A DNA stretch of 25,630 nt, from positions 1 to 25,630 of the IMG/VR virus record IMGVR_UViG_3300023443_000080. One strand, given 5' to 3'. Position 1 is the first letter of the stretch; each line of letters starts with the position of its first letter. Made by a program: the position numbers and the translations under genes. This document shows, one piece after another, positions 1-11,358 of this stretch. Source of the stretch: a virus. The notes under the pieces were generated by a model that saw only the letters and a program-made list of their open reading frames with translations, did not search any database and was not told the origin of the DNA.

Positions 1-480
1 AAATGTGGGGTGTCCTTTTTACATACTAAAGAGAATGTTATAAATCATATATGTAAAGAGGATATGAAGAAATATAACAAGATTGCAGAAGATATACTAA
101 AAAATCTTATACAGTGTGTAAAGTGCGGAATGGGAGAAACTAATACAGCAGATGAATTATTGTACCATCAAAAAAATTGTTTTCCTGGAGTTAACTGTGT
201 AAAGTGTGGTGTAAGTTATACGATAGATCATATATGTAAAGAAAGAGGATACACAGTGGAAAATCAACATAGAAAAATCAAAGGGTATAGAGAATTATCC
301 CAGACAGAAATAGATATGATTAATCATATACAGGGTTTAAGAGAAACTATAAGTGATGTATTGAAGATAATGGAAAATACCGCTTTACTGGATAAAAGGT
401 GGTTAGCAATAGGAAAAACCGATTTACAAAAAGGATTAATGGCTGTGACTAGATCAATATCTAAACCAGATTTCTTTTAA
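1..480 (+). CDS. Zinc-knuckle protein with C-terminal Acb2/Tad1-like hairpin domain (5' end missing)
   Basis: The reading frame is open from base 1 (it begins K-C-G), so the true start lies upstream; the GTG at 10 is only an internal codon. Seen: three Cys/His clusters in 159 visible residues: C2...H16-x-C18, C39-x2-C42...H56-x3-C60, and C66-x2-C69...H77-x-C79, which look like repeated C2HC zinc knuckles. After a basic linker, residues about 93-159 carry IKGYREL, a helix with TEIDMINHI, then RWLAIGKTDLQKGLM and a terminal RSISKPDFF. Known: this pattern (KGY near the start, I-x-K-T-x-L-x4-M-x3-R near the end, then Pro) is typical of the Acb2/Tad1 hairpin family, whose studied members are phage sponges for CBASS or Thoeris nucleotide signals. 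Inferred: a possible anti-defence protein with a zinc-binding N-terminal part. Many family members are untested, so function is uncertain. It ends 3 nt before the terminase gene. Confidence 0.75.
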   Translation, partial: KCGVSFLHTKENVINHICKEDMKKYNKIAEDILKNLIQCVKCGMGETNTADELLYHQKNCFPGVNCVKCGVSYTIDHICKERGYTVENQHRKIKGYRELSQTEIDMINHIQGLRETISDVLKIMENTALLDKRWLAIGKTDLQKGLMAVTRSISKPDFF

Positions 481-2315: not shown

Positions 2316-3957
2316 AACAGACAACAGTACGTCAGAACAATTCTCTAAATCAGTAAAACACCGTGACGGTTGGGCTAATATATATACCAGAGAAGGGATG
2401 GTGGATAGGGATAAACAAACTGGGTATTCTCATAGACGTGGGCCTATAATGAGAGAACAGGAGTTAAAGGATATATATCGTACTGATGGATTTGGTAAGA
2501 AGATAGTTAATCGAGTAACAAAGGACATGGTTAGGGAATGGTTTGACATTACTAATGATACTGATGGGGAAATAAATAAAGTATTATTAAATATAGGTGC
2601 TCCCACTGAAATATTGATAGCTTTAAGATGGGCTAAAATATATGGAGGTTCTTTAGTAGTTATGGGAATAAATGATGGTGCAACTGGAAATGATGCTTTG
2701 GAACAACCCGTAAATGAGAATAATATACAAAGTATTGATTTTCTAAAGACTTATAATAGATTTAGAGTAACCTGGGAAACTAACGATTTATTCAATGATC
2801 CTACACAAAGCAATTTTAATACTCCAGAGTTCTATACAATAAGTCCTTTAACTAGTGGTGCTCAAACACCTTTTAAAGTACATGCTTCTAGAGTTTTAAG
2901 ATTTGATGGTGAGCTAACAGATGATGAAACTAGAACAGATAATGAGGGGTGGGATGATTCTATATTTACAGGGATTAGAACACAGCTAATTAATGTTAAT
3001 AGTATGTTTCAATCGGTTAAATCTATTGTAGACGAGTACGTAATTACTATTATTAAAATAAAGAACTTACAGGCTATGATAGCAGCAGGTCAAGATGGGC
3101 TAATTAAAGATAGGCTTAATATACTTGATTTAGGTAGACAAACCATCAATTCAATGATGTTGGATGCGGAAGAAGAATATGAGCGACAATCAGCTTCAGT
3201 AGCGGGGCTTAGAGAGTTGGTGATTGAGTCTGAAACGGCCTTAGCTGCTGTTTCTGATTATCCTATGGTTATCCTTATGGGTGTTTCACCCAGCGGTATG
3301 GATGCAACGGGGGACGCTGATGTTAGATTATATTATGATAATGTAGTGGCAGATCAAAACGATAAGATGAGGAAACAATGTATCACTTTAGTTAGATATA
3401 TACAGCTATCTAAAGAAGGTCCTTTTAATGGTAAAGAATTACCTGACTGGAATATAGAATTTAATCTTCTATGGCAGCCCACAGATAAAGAACTTGCTGA
3501 AACAAGAAAAATAGTAGCTGAAACTGATGAAAAATATATTGATCTAGGGGTTGTTAATTCTCAAGAGGTTAGGGAATCTAGGTATGGCGGGGATGATTAT
3601 TCATTGGAAACTAAAACAGAATCTAAATTTGATAATGAATTGGCTATGTTGCCAGGGCCAGGTAATCCAAAAAATCCTACATTTAATGAAGAACCTACTG
3701 ATAAAAAACAAATTAATACAGATAGACATAATGTATTTGATTCATTTGGTATTACTTCAGAAGATAAAGAACATAGTCATCAGATATTTTTTTATGATAG
3801 AACAAAAGGTAATGGATTTACTGGACCTGGTGGTGAAAGTGATCATCAACATAGAATCGAGGGATTTAATGTGCAAATGAGGAATGATTTAGATGGTACT
3901 CAACATACCCATAGAATAAGTAATGAAATAATACAAAAGGTGAAAGATGCCAATTGA
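2293..3957 (+). CDS. Portal protein, DUF1073 (phage portal, Acb1-associated) family
   Basis: 554 aa. The portal dodecamer forms the DNA-entry vertex and contacts terminase and connector proteins. Seen: the N-terminal block GWANIYTREGMVDRDK, then ELKDIYRTDGFGKKIVNR and DMVREWFDI near 70-90, matches the DUF1073 portal pattern (trans-acting 'elyr...wlarkivd...dMtReW'). The middle contains the long stem/wing helices and a GVSPSGMDATGDADVRLYYD segment near 333-352, a typical portal motif. The last ~75 residues are unusual: three His-x-His motifs at about 494-496, 518-520 and 538-540 around a TGPGGESD turn. Some DUF1073 portals carry a fused Acb1 phosphoesterase, but this one lacks the paired H-x-T/S motifs. 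It overlaps the next gene by 11 nt. Confidence 0.92.
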   Translation: MTKKQTTRTDNSTSEQFSKSVKHRDGWANIYTREGMVDRDKQTGYSHRRGPIMREQELKDIYRTDGFGKKIVNRVTKDMVREWFDITNDTDGEINKVLLNIGAPTEILIALRWAKIYGGSLVVMGINDGATGNDALEQPVNENNIQSIDFLKTYNRFRVTWETNDLFNDPTQSNFNTPEFYTISPLTSGAQTPFKVHASRVLRFDGELTDDETRTDNEGWDDSIFTGIRTQLINVNSMFQSVKSIVDEYVITIIKIKNLQAMIAAGQDGLIKDRLNILDLGRQTINSMMLDAEEEYERQSASVAGLRELVIESETALAAVSDYPMVILMGVSPSGMDATGDADVRLYYDNVVADQNDKMRKQCITLVRYIQLSKEGPFNGKELPDWNIEFNLLWQPTDKELAETRKIVAETDEKYIDLGVVNSQEVRESRYGGDDYSLETKTESKFDNELAMLPGPGNPKNPTFNEEPTDKKQINTDRHNVFDSFGITSEDKEHSHQIFFYDRTKGNGFTGPGGESDHQHRIEGFNVQMRNDLDGTQHTHRISNEIIQKVKDAN

Positions 3958-4807
3958 AACCGCATTACCGGATTTAAACCGTAGAAGGGCTGCACTTCCC
4001 AATCCTAGGAGAAAATTACCTAAGAATTTACCTATATGGTTATTTCCATTACCTATAGAAACCATTTATCGTAATGCTTTATTAGAATTAATAGATGCAC
4101 AAAATAAGATAATACAAACTTCTTTAATACCTCATTTACCTTCTATAGCACTGCAAAGAAATGAAGAAGTACCAGAACAATTTAGAGCGGATGATTATTC
4201 TGATTCTGTAGAAGAATTAATAGCAATATTGATTTTGTTGTATGCTTCTATTCCTATAAATATAGAGGCCCTAGTAACTAAGATAGGGGCAGATGTAAGT
4301 ATATGGAATGAGGTGCAGTATCAGAAGTTAATAAAGTCTGCTCTTGGGGTTAATTTATTCCAAAGAGAGCCATTCTTAAATGCCGCATTAAATTCATTTA
4401 TTAAAGAGAATGTCACCCTTATTAACAAAATGACTACTGATCAGATAGATAGTATTGAGGGTATAATGCAAAGAGGATTTAGGACCGGATTATCTTCCAG
4501 TGAAATTGCAACACAAATAGAGAAACAAATAGGTGTTACTAAGAATAAAGCTAGATTTATTGCCAGAGATCAAGTAGGTAAACTTAATGGCCAACTCACT
4601 GGAATGCGACAAACTAATTTAGGTATTACTAAATACAAATGGCGTACGCAGTTAGATAATAGGGTGAGACCAAACCACAGAACAAAAGAAGGGGTTACTT
4701 TCTTTTGGGATAATGCCCCTGCTGATACAGGACATCCGGGGGAAGACTTTCAATGTAGATGCCACGCAGAACCAGATTTTTCAACAGTATTTGAGGAGCT
4801 ACAATAA
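3947..4807 (+). CDS. Minor head / head morphogenesis protein, phage Mu F (SPP1 gp7)-like
   Basis: 286 aa. MuF-like proteins sit inside the head near the portal and are packaged in few copies. Seen: a Pro-rich N-terminus with NLPIWLFPLP, a helical middle, then the C-terminal MuF region from about residue 195: FIARDQVGKLNGQLTGMRQ, YKWRTQLDNRVRPNHR, FFWDNAPADTGHPGEDFQCRCHAEP. The arginine, HR and CRCHAEP positions are characteristic of the family. It follows the portal with an 11-nt overlap, the usual order. No fused toxin or other effector domain is present at the C-terminus. Confidence 0.93.
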   Translation: MPIETALPDLNRRRAALPNPRRKLPKNLPIWLFPLPIETIYRNALLELIDAQNKIIQTSLIPHLPSIALQRNEEVPEQFRADDYSDSVEELIAILILLYASIPINIEALVTKIGADVSIWNEVQYQKLIKSALGVNLFQREPFLNAALNSFIKENVTLINKMTTDQIDSIEGIMQRGFRTGLSSSEIATQIEKQIGVTKNKARFIARDQVGKLNGQLTGMRQTNLGITKYKWRTQLDNRVRPNHRTKEGVTFFWDNAPADTGHPGEDFQCRCHAEPDFSTVFEELQ

Positions 4808-5263: not shown

Positions 5264-8200
5264 ATGCTCACAGACAATTTTATAGTTAGAGGGAATTCAG
5301 GTACCGAAATTGACATAGGCAATATAACTATGTCTGCTGATGGGAATGATTTAAATATTCCTGGATCTATAGAAATTGAGAATGGATCAATAGCATTACC
5401 TTCTTTAAATTTCGCATCACACATAACCACTGGATTATCTGCAAGTGTGACAGGTCTTGAATTGTCCGTTAATGGGATCGAGGGGCTAGGAATAAGAACC
5501 TCTACAACCCCAGTAAATGGATTATTAATAGAGATGGCCAACACGGGAGATGGTGTAAATATTGTACCTGTTGGTCCTGATGGTTCTATTGACTTTGTGG
5601 TACGCGCAAAGGGCGGTAATTTAGTATTAAATAATCTTATTGGAGAGGTACATCTTGGTGTTGGGCCAGTGATGATAGTTAAAAATACTGGAACGGAAGT
5701 AATTATTTCAGGAGACATAACTGCTACTTCTTTTAATGGTGTGGCCCTTACCACAGCAGGGGTTTCAAGTAATTTTTTAGATGAAACAGGAAATTATTCC
5801 GTCCCAACAGATACAGGTGGTCAAGTAGATTCTGTTGTTAGTGGGACAAACATAACTATAGATGCCACAGATCCAGTTAACCCAATCGCCAATTTAGATG
5901 CGGCCATTACAGGCACATCTGTTAATGGTGTTACACTGGCAACAGGGGGGGCTGCAACTAACTTTTTAAATCAAACGGGTAATTATTCTACACCAGCGGG
6001 TACAGGTAATGTAACAACATCTTCAACCTTAACAGATAATTTTATTGTGATAGGTAATGGGACAGAGGATGTTGATGTTACTACTGCATCATTCAGTGGA
6101 GATAACCTTACAATTGTAGGATCGGCTACTATTGTAAATGGTTTTATAGCTACACCATCACTAAATTTCACATCCCATATAACTACAGGATTATCAGCAT
6201 CGACTAACCGTTTCGATCTTAGTGTTAATGGGGTTTTAGGTATTGGGATAGTAGCTTCTACAATTCCTGTAAATGGTCTTTTTGTAGAAATGTCTGATAC
6301 TGGTAATGGGGTGAATTTAGTTCCGCAGGGTACGGATGGTACTATTGATTTGATTGTAAGGGCTAAAGGTGCTAATGTTAGGATAAATCAAATTGCAGGT
6401 GATACTTTTATTGGTATTGGTGATCAAATACAAGTTGATAATGGCGGTAGTACTGGAATTGGTCGAGGTGTTGGCACCCCTAGTGTAGTCTTAGATGTGG
6501 CAACAGAAGCTTCTGATACAATACCTATTGCTAGGTTCTCCTCAACAGTTACAGACTCAGGTTCTACGAGGTTGTTTTGTGGTAATAATGATCCTAATAC
6601 TCATGTTACCGGATTCCCTGGAGATGTATATCATAGAGATTCAGGAGAGCTATCAGGTTCTTGGGAAAGCTTAGAAGCAACATCAGGTACAGAATGGTTT
6701 AGCAGGGGCCTTAATCCCCCAACTATAAGAATGATCAATAATATTGCACAGTTTGAAGATCTTGTGTCAACTGGTACTTTTACAGTGTTAGAAGATACCT
6801 TACTTATTATGAATACCAAGGTGGTTACTGCATCCAATATTTCCATTGTTTTTGGTTTTAAATTATCAGTTATTGGAAGATATAAAGGGGATGTAGGTTT
6901 TAATTATACAGGAGCTAGTACATTCATTAGCGGGGAAGGATCTTTTATAGCTACTCAAGAGTGTAATCTTGAAAGTGTTGGTACAGGACAATTATTTGAT
7001 ATAACTAACAAGGCTGCTATAGTTATTATGAAAGAAATAAAGTTAGATGGTTGGGATGATTTAGGTGAAATTGTTAATGCTGCATTGATAATAGATACTG
7101 TAGAAATGGATAATATTACTGTAGGTCTTACTTTAACTAATCCTAGAGAAGTTGTTGTTACTAAAATCTTTCAAGATGGTGTAGCAATGGTAGGATCTTT
7201 ATTTACTTTTACTACTATAGCTATAGGTGAGATTTATTCATTTAAAGACATTAGAAGTAATTTAACTTCTACAGGTTCAATTTTTGATTTTAGTCCTGAT
7301 ATACCGCCTACAACTCAAATAGCTGTAAGTGAATGTTTAGCTGATATAGGGAATATATTTAAACAAACCCAAATAGCTACAGATGCTTTCACTTTAGTTA
7401 GTGATAGTGCTGTTAGCAATACAATTACAGCGGCAGTAGATAATGGATCTGGGTTAGTTAGGTTTTCAAGTTCTGAAGATATATTTAATGGAGAACTTGT
7501 CACAACATCAGGGTTTACAACCAATACAGCTTATAATGGTACATTTAAAGCGTTCAATATCGTATTAGGAGTATCTTTTGATGTTAATGTACTAATAGGT
7601 ACTACAGAAACAGGTAATCTTTCTGCTAAGCGAGTCTTATTTTTCTCCGCTGGTAACTCCTTTTCCAATGGGGATACTGTAGAAGTAACAAACTCTCAAT
7701 TTTATAATGGTTTTTATAGAGTACTTGACTCCACTACTAATGAAGTTGAAGTAAATCATTCATTTGAGGGAACTGATATAGGTACAATGTCAAGAGATGT
7801 AGGTCTTGATGAACGAGATCCACGTATTAAAGCATTTAATAATTTTAGTGATAATGCCAATTCTTCTGTTACATTATTTGCTGAGAGAAATGGAAATGAT
7901 GTAGAGACTCCAGTGTCAAGTGGTGCCACTTTTTACTCAACTGTTCAAGTGAATGTTATAAACTCACAGAGCACACAAAGATTTAGAATGATAAGTTCTC
8001 AAATAAGTGCTTATATATACACTGGGATTGAAACCATAACCGTTCCTGTAGTGGCAACGTTTACAGTAATAAAGAATGGTGGTGATGGTGATTATCGAGC
8101 CGCTGTAACTAAGAATGATGTGGACCCCACCTCAGAAAATGACGGGTTTGTACCTATGGTAATAACTACCCAGAAAAGTAGCTGGACATATGAATCAATT

Positions 8201-8299
8201 GTAACACTTAGTACAGGTGATGAGATAGTTGCTAAACTAGTAGGGGATGGCACTTCTGTAGCACCTACAATAACAGACTTTAGGTTGATAGTGGGATAA
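5264..8299 (+). CDS. Large repetitive tail-fibre-like / adhesin protein
   Basis: 1011 aa, rich in Gly, Thr, Ser, Val and Asn, and almost all predicted beta. The start ATG 5264 follows AAGGAA at 5249-5254, with an in-frame TAA immediately upstream. Seen: an internal duplication (residues about 1-150 and 255-395, each beginning LTDNFIV and containing LPSLNF/TPSLNF...SHITTGLSAS and a VRAKG block); two copies of the NGVxLxTxGxxxNFLxxTGNYSxP linker at about 158-185 and 225-250, a motif common in phage tail fibres; a probable beta-helix at about 495-720; two small beta modules at about 725-843; and a C-terminal globular beta domain. Inferred: a trimeric receptor-binding fibre or spike. Its place next to head genes also leaves a head fibre possible. 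No intramolecular chaperone or enzymatic motif recognised. Confidence 0.78.
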   Translation: MLTDNFIVRGNSGTEIDIGNITMSADGNDLNIPGSIEIENGSIALPSLNFASHITTGLSASVTGLELSVNGIEGLGIRTSTTPVNGLLIEMANTGDGVNIVPVGPDGSIDFVVRAKGGNLVLNNLIGEVHLGVGPVMIVKNTGTEVIISGDITATSFNGVALTTAGVSSNFLDETGNYSVPTDTGGQVDSVVSGTNITIDATDPVNPIANLDAAITGTSVNGVTLATGGAATNFLNQTGNYSTPAGTGNVTTSSTLTDNFIVIGNGTEDVDVTTASFSGDNLTIVGSATIVNGFIATPSLNFTSHITTGLSASTNRFDLSVNGVLGIGIVASTIPVNGLFVEMSDTGNGVNLVPQGTDGTIDLIVRAKGANVRINQIAGDTFIGIGDQIQVDNGGSTGIGRGVGTPSVVLDVATEASDTIPIARFSSTVTDSGSTRLFCGNNDPNTHVTGFPGDVYHRDSGELSGSWESLEATSGTEWFSRGLNPPTIRMINNIAQFEDLVSTGTFTVLEDTLLIMNTKVVTASNISIVFGFKLSVIGRYKGDVGFNYTGASTFISGEGSFIATQECNLESVGTGQLFDITNKAAIVIMKEIKLDGWDDLGEIVNAALIIDTVEMDNITVGLTLTNPREVVVTKIFQDGVAMVGSLFTFTTIAIGEIYSFKDIRSNLTSTGSIFDFSPDIPPTTQIAVSECLADIGNIFKQTQIATDAFTLVSDSAVSNTITAAVDNGSGLVRFSSSEDIFNGELVTTSGFTTNTAYNGTFKAFNIVLGVSFDVNVLIGTTETGNLSAKRVLFFSAGNSFSNGDTVEVTNSQFYNGFYRVLDSTTNEVEVNHSFEGTDIGTMSRDVGLDERDPRIKAFNNFSDNANSSVTLFAERNGNDVETPVSSGATFYSTVQVNVINSQSTQRFRMISSQISAYIYTGIETITVPVVATFTVIKNGGDGDYRAAVTKNDVDPTSENDGFVPMVITTQKSSWTYESIVTLSTGDEIVAKLVGDGTSVAPTITDFRLIVG

Positions 8300-8300
8300 A

Positions 8301-9923
8301 ATGGATTTTAATATATATAGAAATGATCTTGTAACTAGGTTCCCACAATATGTAATATCGGACCAAGTTGTTGGTTCTGGATTTACAGCAGAAGCAACAA
8401 TAACATCTACTTCTATTACCAGTGTAACGGACAATGGAGGAATAGCAGTATTTAATCACGCTGGAACTTCCCCCCCTGTAGATTCTTTGGTTACTATCAC
8501 TGGATTTATAACAAATACTACGTATAACGGAAGTTTTAGGATAACTTTATCAACCGCCACAACTTTTGAAACTGGTGTTGCTTTTGGAACTAATGAAACA
8601 GGGGATTATACAGCACAGGTTGTGATTAGTGGTTATGCGTCGTTTCAGTTAGAGGCATACCGTGACTTAAGAAATAAACTTCTTGAAGGTGAAGATCCTT
8701 TACCTCAAGCTACTACAACTCAAAAAGATTCATACACTGATGTTGAAACTAATTTTCATCTTGTAGATTCCGATCTTAACCAAATTCAATACTTTGATAG
8801 TGTTAACTGGGTAGGACCACCTGGAAGTGGTGGAGCTTCTGTTAGTGGATCTTGGAAGTTCGATAATAGTACGACAGAATCTAATCCTGGATCTGGGAAC
8901 TTTCGTACTAACAATGCTACTATTGGTAGCGTAACCAAATTATTTATATCACATGAATCAGAATCTGGATCGGATGTTACCAATATTATTAATTTATTGT
9001 CTTCTGGAGATGTACTTTACTTACAGAATGCTGAAGATTCTACAGAGTTCTTAACATTCAATATTACTATAAATGTTGATAATGGTTCTTGGAGTTCAAT
9101 TACAGGGACTGTAAGTAATTCAAATTCAAATTTTACTAATGGAAAAGAATTTGGAATTGTATTTCTATTTGGAGGTGCTGGACCAAGTGCTAATGGTCTA
9201 CCATTAAATTTTGCAAGTTTTAATGGTTCTGGTGGTTTGAGCTATATATCAAGTACTACTGTACAGGTAACGGCAGGATCTTGGAGAGATAGTGCCAATT
9301 CTTTTGATCTTATATTAGGATCAAACACCAACGTAGTTATAACGACTACAGGGGCAGGAGGTTTACAAACCGGATCATCTGAGTCATCGAACACTTGGTA
9401 TGGGGTTTATGCTATTGGGGATACCTCAGGATCTAATGTTACAACTACCTTACTTATACCAGAAGGTGTAGCTTTCAATGAGTCTGGGTATGATGTAATT
9501 AGAAATGTAGGTTGGGTAAAAAATAATGCCGGGGCTGATTTTTTTAGATTTAATACAGAAGGTAAAGGGTCATCTCAGATATACCTATTTGATATTGATG
9601 CTCAATCAGAAATATTAACCGCGGGTAGTGCTACTACATTTACTGATATTGACTGTTCGGCTTTTATACCTCCAACATCAATATTAGGATTCTTTCAAGT
9701 AGGCGTTGTCGCGTCTGCTGCATTTGCAGGAATAACGATAAGGCCAAATGGTGCTGGTGGCACATACGCTGCGTTTGTAACACGCCCAGGAATAGCAACA
9801 ACAATTACAAACAGGTCATTTGCAGCTATGATTACTGACGAAGATCGAATTATAGAATATGAGATGATTAATGCAGGTGATGATGGATACCTATCCATCC
9901 AAGGGTTTAAGGTGGATATATAA
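8301..9923 (+). CDS. Tail-fibre-like / adhesin protein, 540 aa
   Basis: Begins 1 nt after the preceding stop (TAAAATG). Seen: N-terminal residues about 42-106 carry a beta module (NGGIAVF...VTITGFITNTTYNGSF...TNETGDYTAQ) also found in the C-terminal half of the upstream fibre. A short alpha segment, EAYRDLRNKLLEG, follows, then a GSWKFDNSTTESNPGSGNFR block near 190-210 that is widespread in phage fibre proteins, and Gly/Ser/Asn-rich beta repeats. The C-terminal ~110 residues form a distinct globular beta domain and the likely receptor-binding tip. Inferred: part of the same host-recognition cassette as its neighbours. Confidence 0.72.
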   Translation: MDFNIYRNDLVTRFPQYVISDQVVGSGFTAEATITSTSITSVTDNGGIAVFNHAGTSPPVDSLVTITGFITNTTYNGSFRITLSTATTFETGVAFGTNETGDYTAQVVISGYASFQLEAYRDLRNKLLEGEDPLPQATTTQKDSYTDVETNFHLVDSDLNQIQYFDSVNWVGPPGSGGASVSGSWKFDNSTTESNPGSGNFRTNNATIGSVTKLFISHESESGSDVTNIINLLSSGDVLYLQNAEDSTEFLTFNITINVDNGSWSSITGTVSNSNSNFTNGKEFGIVFLFGGAGPSANGLPLNFASFNGSGGLSYISSTTVQVTAGSWRDSANSFDLILGSNTNVVITTTGAGGLQTGSSESSNTWYGVYAIGDTSGSNVTTTLLIPEGVAFNESGYDVIRNVGWVKNNAGADFFRFNTEGKGSSQIYLFDIDAQSEILTAGSATTFTDIDCSAFIPPTSILGFFQVGVVASAAFAGITIRPNGAGGTYAAFVTRPGIATTITNRSFAAMITDEDRIIEYEMINAGDDGYLSIQGFKVDI

Positions 9924-10693
9924 TGGCAATAGTTTTTCAGGTTTTAATTTTACATGATTCAGGTAATACTGGCCCAGGTGATGTTATTGCGGCGGGCTAT
10001 ACAGATTTAACATTAGATGGAAAATATAATGCCTCGATAATGTCAGTAAGAACGGATTCTCCAAGCTCTGTGTTTATCTACTCTGATCAGAACACAGATG
10101 TTACAGAATGGGATGGTGTTTCTTTTTCTAATGCTACTAAAAACTATGATGTAACTACTCATTTTGTTAAGTGGGACCTGGTAAATGAAGAATATATAAT
10201 TCTAAGACTAATAGAAGGATCGAAGGAAGTAGTTTTTGATGCTAATAGTGTTAGCTACCCTTCGAGTAATCCGGCCACCGCTGATTCTAGAAACGGACAT
10301 CCTATAATTGCTTATGATGATACAGTTGCTGAAAGTATACTAATCACTTCGTCTGTGTCAGGAAATTATGTTGGTGGAGAATTTGATGTTTTTGTTGAGT
10401 GGGTTTCTGCATCTGCTACTACAGGTGGTGTGTCATGGGGAGTTGAGATTGAACGCAGTTCTCCAGGAGGAACTAGTATTGCATCTGATTCATTTGCAGC
10501 GCAGCAAATAGGAACCGATACAACTAATGGAACTTCAGGCATTATCACAAGAACGCTTATTGCATTTACTCAGTCCCAGGCAGATTCAATTGAAGCCTTT
10601 GATACTTTTAGAATGAGAATACAACGAGTTGTAGGAGATGTCGGTGATGATATGGTAGGAGATGCTCAAATTGTTAAGATTGGAGCGGTATAA
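9923..10693 (+). CDS. Putative virion/fibre-associated beta protein, 256 aa
   Basis: TAATG overlap with the preceding gene. The first 100 residues form an all-beta domain (GYTDLTLDGKYNASIMSV, then a WDLVNEEYIILRL segment). The second part, from about 130, includes GGEFDVFVEWVSASATTGGVSWGVEIE, a beta-sandwich style sequence seen in phage appendage proteins. No signal peptide or catalytic motif. The role as a fibre accessory or second adhesin is inferred from composition and context only. Confidence 0.6.
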   Translation: MAIVFQVLILHDSGNTGPGDVIAAGYTDLTLDGKYNASIMSVRTDSPSSVFIYSDQNTDVTEWDGVSFSNATKNYDVTTHFVKWDLVNEEYIILRLIEGSKEVVFDANSVSYPSSNPATADSRNGHPIIAYDDTVAESILITSSVSGNYVGGEFDVFVEWVSASATTGGVSWGVEIERSSPGGTSIASDSFAAQQIGTDTTNGTSGIITRTLIAFTQSQADSIEAFDTFRMRIQRVVGDVGDDMVGDAQIVKIGAV

Positions 10694-10695
10694 TT

Positions 10696-11358
10696 GTGGC
10701 TAGAAACTTTGAAGAATCTAATAATGATTATATAGAGATCGGGGATGTAGCTGCTTTAGACCTTACTGGTGATACCGTTTCTTTATCTTCTTGGATAAGA
10801 ATAGAAGCTCTTAATGGAGAACAGAAGATTTTTGATAAGTGGTCCGATGTTGATAGCAACTTTAGTTATCTGTTATCAATGAATGTAGATAATAAAATCA
10901 TAATGGCTATACATTCTGGCACTACTACAATAGCTACTGGGACAACGACTTTGAGTACTGGGGTATGGTTTCATGTCGCTGGAACTTATGATGGATCAAA
11001 TATAAGAGTCTACTTGAATGGAATAGAAGAAGGTTCGACTGCGAAAACTGGGAACATGGTATCAAACACATCACCCGTGAGAATTGGTGCAGGTTCCGGT
11101 GGTGTGGGAACCGAACAACCATTTAATGGTGATATTGGTCATTGTGAGATCTGGGATAGTGCTTTATCAGCTAATGAAATAAAATCATTATCAGTGGGTG
11201 TTAATCCATTAAGGATTAACAGGGAGAGCTTATTATCTTATTCACCACTCAATGGGCAAAATCCAGAATTGGATGTAATTGGTGGGTTAGATTTAACGGT
11301 AGTGGGAACAACTAAATCTGAAGAACCACCAATACCTAACAGTATAATAGCACCATAA
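10696..11358 (+). CDS. LamG/concanavalin A-like lectin-fold protein
   Basis: 220 aa, GTG start 2 nt after the previous stop with a GGAGCGG purine stretch upstream. Seen: the LamG-like jelly-roll signature: SLSSWIRI near 30, then a TGVWFHVAGTYDGSNIRVYLNG strand pair near 90-112, SPVRIGAG, and the closing FNGDIGHCEIWDSALSANEI near 142-160. Known: this fold often binds glycans. Inferred: it binds host or surface polysaccharide as part of the fibre cassette. The C-terminal ~45 residues hold a second copy-like strand set (LLSYSPLNGQNPELDVIGG) and a Pro-rich tail. Confidence 0.82.
   Translation: MARNFEESNNDYIEIGDVAALDLTGDTVSLSSWIRIEALNGEQKIFDKWSDVDSNFSYLLSMNVDNKIIMAIHSGTTTIATGTTTLSTGVWFHVAGTYDGSNIRVYLNGIEEGSTAKTGNMVSNTSPVRIGAGSGGVGTEQPFNGDIGHCEIWDSALSANEIKSLSVGVNPLRINRESLLSYSPLNGQNPELDVIGGLDLTVVGTTKSEEPPIPNSIIAP

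Follow-up and report, generated by a model that had tools for sequence, protein, structure and literature searches.

A complete Acb2 sponge domain, preceded in frame by a cysteine-rich segment, was found at the left edge of a viral contig, IMG/VR record IMGVR_UViG_3300023443_000080. The record is a fragment of 25,630 bases; it was analysed over its whole length and is called the window below. In the frame 1-480, a stretch of 85 residues holding three repeated Cys/His clusters is followed by a complete 74-residue Acb2 domain; the stop occupies 478-480 and no earlier stop lies between the two parts. The initial annotation had described three Cys/His clusters followed by an Acb2-like hairpin, and the frame is indeed open and reads as quoted there. 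Its true N-terminus falls beyond the left edge of the contig. The reading preferred here, which we hold at about an even chance, is an Acb2 sponge gene lying in frame with a probably metal-binding cysteine-rich segment, with fused and free sponge being produced from one frame.

Acb2 is a small sponge that almost always occurs by itself, and in-frame N-terminal segments that spare the internal ribosome site and start codon would, if true, offer a simple route to a mixed hexamer with a few extra domains. The features discussed below are the following:

1-480, + strand: continuous open frame of 159 visible codons, 5'-open at the contig edge, comprising the cysteine-rich segment and the Acb2 domain
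4-54, + strand: Cys/His cluster 1, C-x13-H-x-C (KCGVS...NHIC), its first CxxC half lost to the contig edge; includes an in-frame DNA repeat shared with 223-242
115-180, + strand: Cys/His cluster 2, C-x2-C-x13-H-x3-C (CVKCG...YHQKNC), recognized from the sequence with composition and shuffle tests
196-237, + strand: Cys/His cluster 3, C-x2-C-x7-H-x-C (CVKCGVSYTIDHIC), recognized from the sequence with the DNA repeat and the shuffle test
244-249, + strand: AGAGGA, Shine-Dalgarno-like, 6 nt ahead of GTG 256 and within the KERGY codons
256-258, + strand: GTG, Val86, at the start position of the homologues
256-480, + strand: complete Acb2 domain or gene, 74 codons and stop (PF24729; PDB 8h2j/8ixz; Foldseek; VIA-align)
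286-288, + strand: Tyr96 of IKGY, Acb2 position 11, invariant in 168 homologues and equal to the IKGY Tyr of T4 Acb2
331-333, + strand: CAG, Gln111, Acb2 position 26, which is Lys in 166 of 168 homologues
484-1743, + strand: terminase large subunit (PF03237, phrog_2), starting 3 nt past the acb2 stop

Identity of the Acb2 domain

The C-terminal domain belongs to Acb2 and is closest by sequence to the Acb2 branch. Residues 95-154 matched Pfam PF24729 (Acb2_Tad1_hairpin) with 40.2 bits (E=3.8e-10), above the curated cut-off of 27 bits, and phmmer against solved structures returned the Acb2 chains 8h2j (E=6e-16) and 8ixz (E=1e-15) over residues 87-159. T4 Vs.4 (7uq2) was also found with the family profile (E=3e-7). 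The predicted model reached pLDDT 96-98 across two long helices (residues 101-150). Foldseek of this model gave 8h2x, 8h2j and 7uq2 with probabilities of 0.95-1.00 and no other convincing match, and VIA-align placed 69-72 residues with Z of 8.4 to 8h2x/8h2j and 8.1 to 7uq2, the best unrelated row scoring 6.5. No Tad1 chain was present among the fold matches listed by either program. The hairpin initially assigned to Acb2/Tad1 is thus borne out as Acb2, not visibly Tad1, by the Pfam and solved-structure matches as well as by both fold comparisons, and the Foldseek search proposed at that stage as a check did return structural matches to the Pseudomonas phage chains and to T4 Vs.4.

The Pseudomonas phage Acb2 (8h2j, 8h2x, 8ixz; p26) aligned over its full length to residues 87-159 as the same hairpin, and its NQHxKIKGYR start, RWLAIGKTD motif and invariant residues are kept in the window. 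The window domain differs from it in having some 20 residues fewer between the helices, in carrying Gln instead of Lys at position 26 and in being preceded in frame by at least 85 cysteine-rich residues. T4 Vs.4/Acb2 shows the same fold (Z 8.1, 2.4 A over 70 residues), and the likeness to T4 that the initial annotation had pointed out, namely IKGY and a C-terminal R...P, is common to the two domains; the T4 protein is, however, about 21 % identical, stands alone and retains the Lys that is absent from the window. Tad1, the Thoeris sponge that binds gcADPR, shares the PF24729 hairpin and also has an N-terminal domain ahead of it. The N-terminal part of Tad1 is an antiparallel beta-sheet (PMC12043709), whereas a cysteine-repeat segment takes this place in the window.

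The cysteine-rich N-terminal segment

The N-terminal part is coding, as follows from its cysteine enrichment, its improbable openness, the rarity of its units among shuffled sequences and its in-phase DNA repeats. Cysteine accounts for 8 of the 85 residues (9.4 %), compared with 25 of 7563 (0.33 %) in the other window proteins, and the probability of 85 stop-free codons at the local composition is ~2e-4. Two complete C-x2-C...H-x(1,3)-C units are present, and a further one is truncated at the contig edge; when the same residues were shuffled 100,000 times, at least two units arose in 17 cases. The DNA repeat ATAAATCATATATGTAAAGA is found at 40-59 and 223-242, 183 nt apart, and the repeat TGTGTAAAGTGCGG at 115-128 and 196-209, 81 nt apart with one synonymous difference, both distances being multiples of three.

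The segment probably binds metal, and its Cys/His pattern makes zinc binding likely; clusters of such a kind usually bind nucleic acid or a protein partner. The name zinc knuckle, used in the initial annotation, had to be dropped since the cluster spacings (C-x2-C-x13-H-x3-C and C-x2-C-x7-H-x-C) differ from that of the CCHC zinc knuckle, C-x2-C-x4-H-x4-C. No zinc family exceeded its cut-off in a profile search of the N-terminal part, and the predicted model of this part was of low confidence and had no strands. When the 85 residues were searched separately, no relative was found in viral contigs, genome contigs or phages (best phage match E=0.07), so that a single contig edge carries the case for the fusion. 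The earlier proposal of a zinc-binding domain fused to a sponge is accordingly upheld only as regards the open cysteine-rich coding frame, but no zinc family, confident model or homologue came to its aid. A variant of a known sponge family with a cysteine-rich in-frame extension, and with it the less described zinc-finger-sponge architecture, is plausible, and a literature search found nothing on Acb2 with zinc domains; this claim is weakened by the intact internal start and by its basis in a single contig edge.

The internal start codon and the products of the frame

The normal start of a stand-alone Acb2 gene is preserved within the open frame, judging by its homologous position and the strength of its ribosome site. 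Among 168 distinct homologues, the window included, the position of residue 86 is occupied by Met in 157 and Val in 11, so that all 167 others have one of the two. The proteins of relatives start at this residue, some of them with GTG, and the phage Acb2 genes in L312 and L313 also begin at the equivalent of GTG 256. The anti-SD pairing of AGAGGA was -5.8 kcal/mol, close to the median over the 29 gene starts of the window (-5.7) and to that of the Acb2 family (-6.0), and equally strong pairing was found at only 13 of 196 internal start-like codons. Since residue 86 corresponds to the stand-alone start, the fusion is not established as the sole product, and the intact start is compatible with three readings: that one frame gives both a fused and a free product, that two genes have lost the stop between them, or that the fusion alone is made.

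Comparable arrangements were sought in about 180 distinct homologues, drawn from viral contigs, genomes and phages. Most have an in-frame stop near upstream, at a median of 14 codons, and below 45 % GC an upstream in-frame extension of more than 30 codons was present in only 1 of 45. Stand-alone Acb2 is the norm, since long in-frame extensions are almost absent among the low-GC relatives. No fusion related to the cysteine-rich one of the window occurred in these some 180 homologues. In L006 (IMG/VR 3300005512_001288, 3935-4249), a CxxC/CxxC segment, MRYLSKPCPRCRKRRVDLLVKCHFCGHTSRRE, immediately precedes MENQHRKIKGYREL in frame, and AAGGAG stands ahead of the internal ATG. L006 thus resembles the window in having a cysteine segment (C-x2-C...C-x2-C) in frame with Acb2 and an internal ribosome site, but its segment is a different, short and ribbon-like one, Lys26 is kept and the gene lies directly behind recT, not next to the terminase. 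In L229 (2379-2725), about 40 cysteine-free residues stand in frame before MDNQHKK, with GGAG ahead of the internal ATG. Since the upstream segments of the window, L006 and L229 are mutually unrelated, these single contigs are suggestive of in-frame joining to Acb2 having arisen more than once.

Several other candidates were rejected. Luteibacter phage Pluto, considered as a third cysteine fusion, proved to be a chance alignment with upstream stops and no ribbon. Those tblastn matches that extended farther upstream (Leptolyngbya phage Lsp-JY19, Vibrio 1.204, Klebsiella plasmids) either carry an annotation as separate genes or overlap such genes, and the long in-frame extensions in the GC-rich L250, L162, L027 and L026 resemble open frames that arise by chance and were left uncounted. 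The alignment to phrog_717 covers its columns 198-285 of 289, so some member of that family may have a long N-terminal part.

The production of fused and free sponge is supported by the conserved start, the strength of the ribosome site and the GTG starts in relatives, and also by L006 and L229, in which an internal ribosome site and ATG are kept behind unrelated upstream segments. A long protein, composed of the putative metal-binding arm and the sponge, would be translated from the whole frame, and initiation at GTG 256 would also yield the ordinary 74-residue sponge. The Acb2 hexamer binds cyclic di- and trinucleotides, and the long and short forms could co-assemble in such a hexamer. Acb2 sponges act by sequestering the cyclic oligonucleotides of CBASS-like defences (PMC10419184, PMC12657218), and the hexamer formed by the window protein would do so and thereby keep the effector inactive. 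Lying outside the pocket, the arm would be an accessory that might help with localisation, with the binding of a partner or of nucleic acid, or with stability.

We lean against, but take seriously, the possibility that a small cysteine-rich protein and a stand-alone Acb2 starting at GTG 256 are encoded by two genes, whose separating stop was recently lost or is masked by a sequencing error, the fused form being no functional unit. The Met or Val in all 167 other homologues, a ribosome site as strong as those of the real starts in the window and the phage genes of L312 and L313 all agree with two genes. Moreover, a single base change would create a stop in five of the six linker codons (K80-Y84), and therefore the apparent fusion could stem from the loss of a stop or from an error in sequencing. 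Against two genes, the frame as written is open and free of stops, and L006 and L229 show the in-frame arrangement independently. An obligate fusion, with the long protein as the sole product and the arm adding a function to the sponge, e.g. the binding of nucleic acid or of a defence protein, is improbable: it accords with the open frame and the clear coding signature of the arm, but it would render the retained ribosome site and start codon superfluous, and no related fusion emerged from the survey.

Position 26 of the domain and the genome context

Three near-invariant positions are changed in the window domain in comparison with the 168 homologues (M22I, K26Q and A69S). The replacement of Lys26, like the internal start codon, had escaped the initial annotation. 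Lys26 and Tyr11 are the Acb2 residues whose mutation, we presume, abolishes cGAMP binding. The dinucleotide pocket of Acb2 makes hydrogen bonds and a salt bridge to the phosphates (review, PMC10419184), and the Y8A substitution in T4 Acb2, equivalent to a change of Tyr96, disrupts dinucleotide binding (PMC12657218). The equivalent of Lys26 is retained in T4 Vs.4 despite only about 21 % identity to the window domain. The Gln at position 26 suggests an altered dinucleotide pocket, and dinucleotide binding is likely weaker or altered in the window domain, given the replacement of a near-invariant Lys, the salt bridge in the pocket and the presumed role of Lys26; Gln111 could leave only weak binding. 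The three substitutions would also fit a domain that has drifted from being a cyclic-dinucleotide sponge to another ligand or to a structural role near the packaging genes, which we consider very unlikely as every invariant residue is kept, including IKGYR, N23, R48, M62, R66 and P71.

The Panoptes defence is set off when Acb2 takes up its decoy dinucleotide, 2'3'-c-di-AMP (PMC12657218), and so a loss of dinucleotide binding could, speculatively, be an advantage against it. Hardly any weight is given to the full version of this idea, that Gln111 has retuned the pocket from dinucleotides to other signals (e.g. cyclic trinucleotides) and so avoids Panoptes, with free and armed sponge both made and the metal-binding arm tethering the hexamer to a partner. 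The lost Lys nevertheless provides a natural test of separating the dinucleotide from the trinucleotide sites, which bears on how phages might evade this sponge-triggered defence.

Downstream of the terminase, the remaining window is the module in which a contractile-tailed phage encodes its head and tail, with portal, Mu-F-like head protein, cement, major capsid, tail sheath, tape measure and baseplate genes. The closest terminase relatives (L074-L077, about 65 % identity) have neither Acb2 nor cysteine repeats upstream of the terminase. Four large proteins are encoded at 5264-11358 within the head module, with the Mu-F-like head protein on one side and the DUF2213, cement and capsid genes on the other. 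They comprise a 1011-aa protein with repeated blocks, proteins of 540 and 256 aa, and a Laminin_G_3 (ConA-like) protein (Pfam E=1e-30), and may represent fibres of the capsid or decorations that bind glycans, unusually placed.

Acb2 genes were often seen among head and packaging genes (L069, L316, L315 and window 256-480). The gene follows the major capsid gene at a distance of one gene in the Leptolyngbya phage and in Pseudomonas phage AV002, and lies ahead of the virion genes in Shewanella phage 1/41 and ahead of the terminase in the window. Four separate Acb2 hairpin matches above the cut-off, on four contigs, were present in one Flavobacteriaceae bin (G008; L143).
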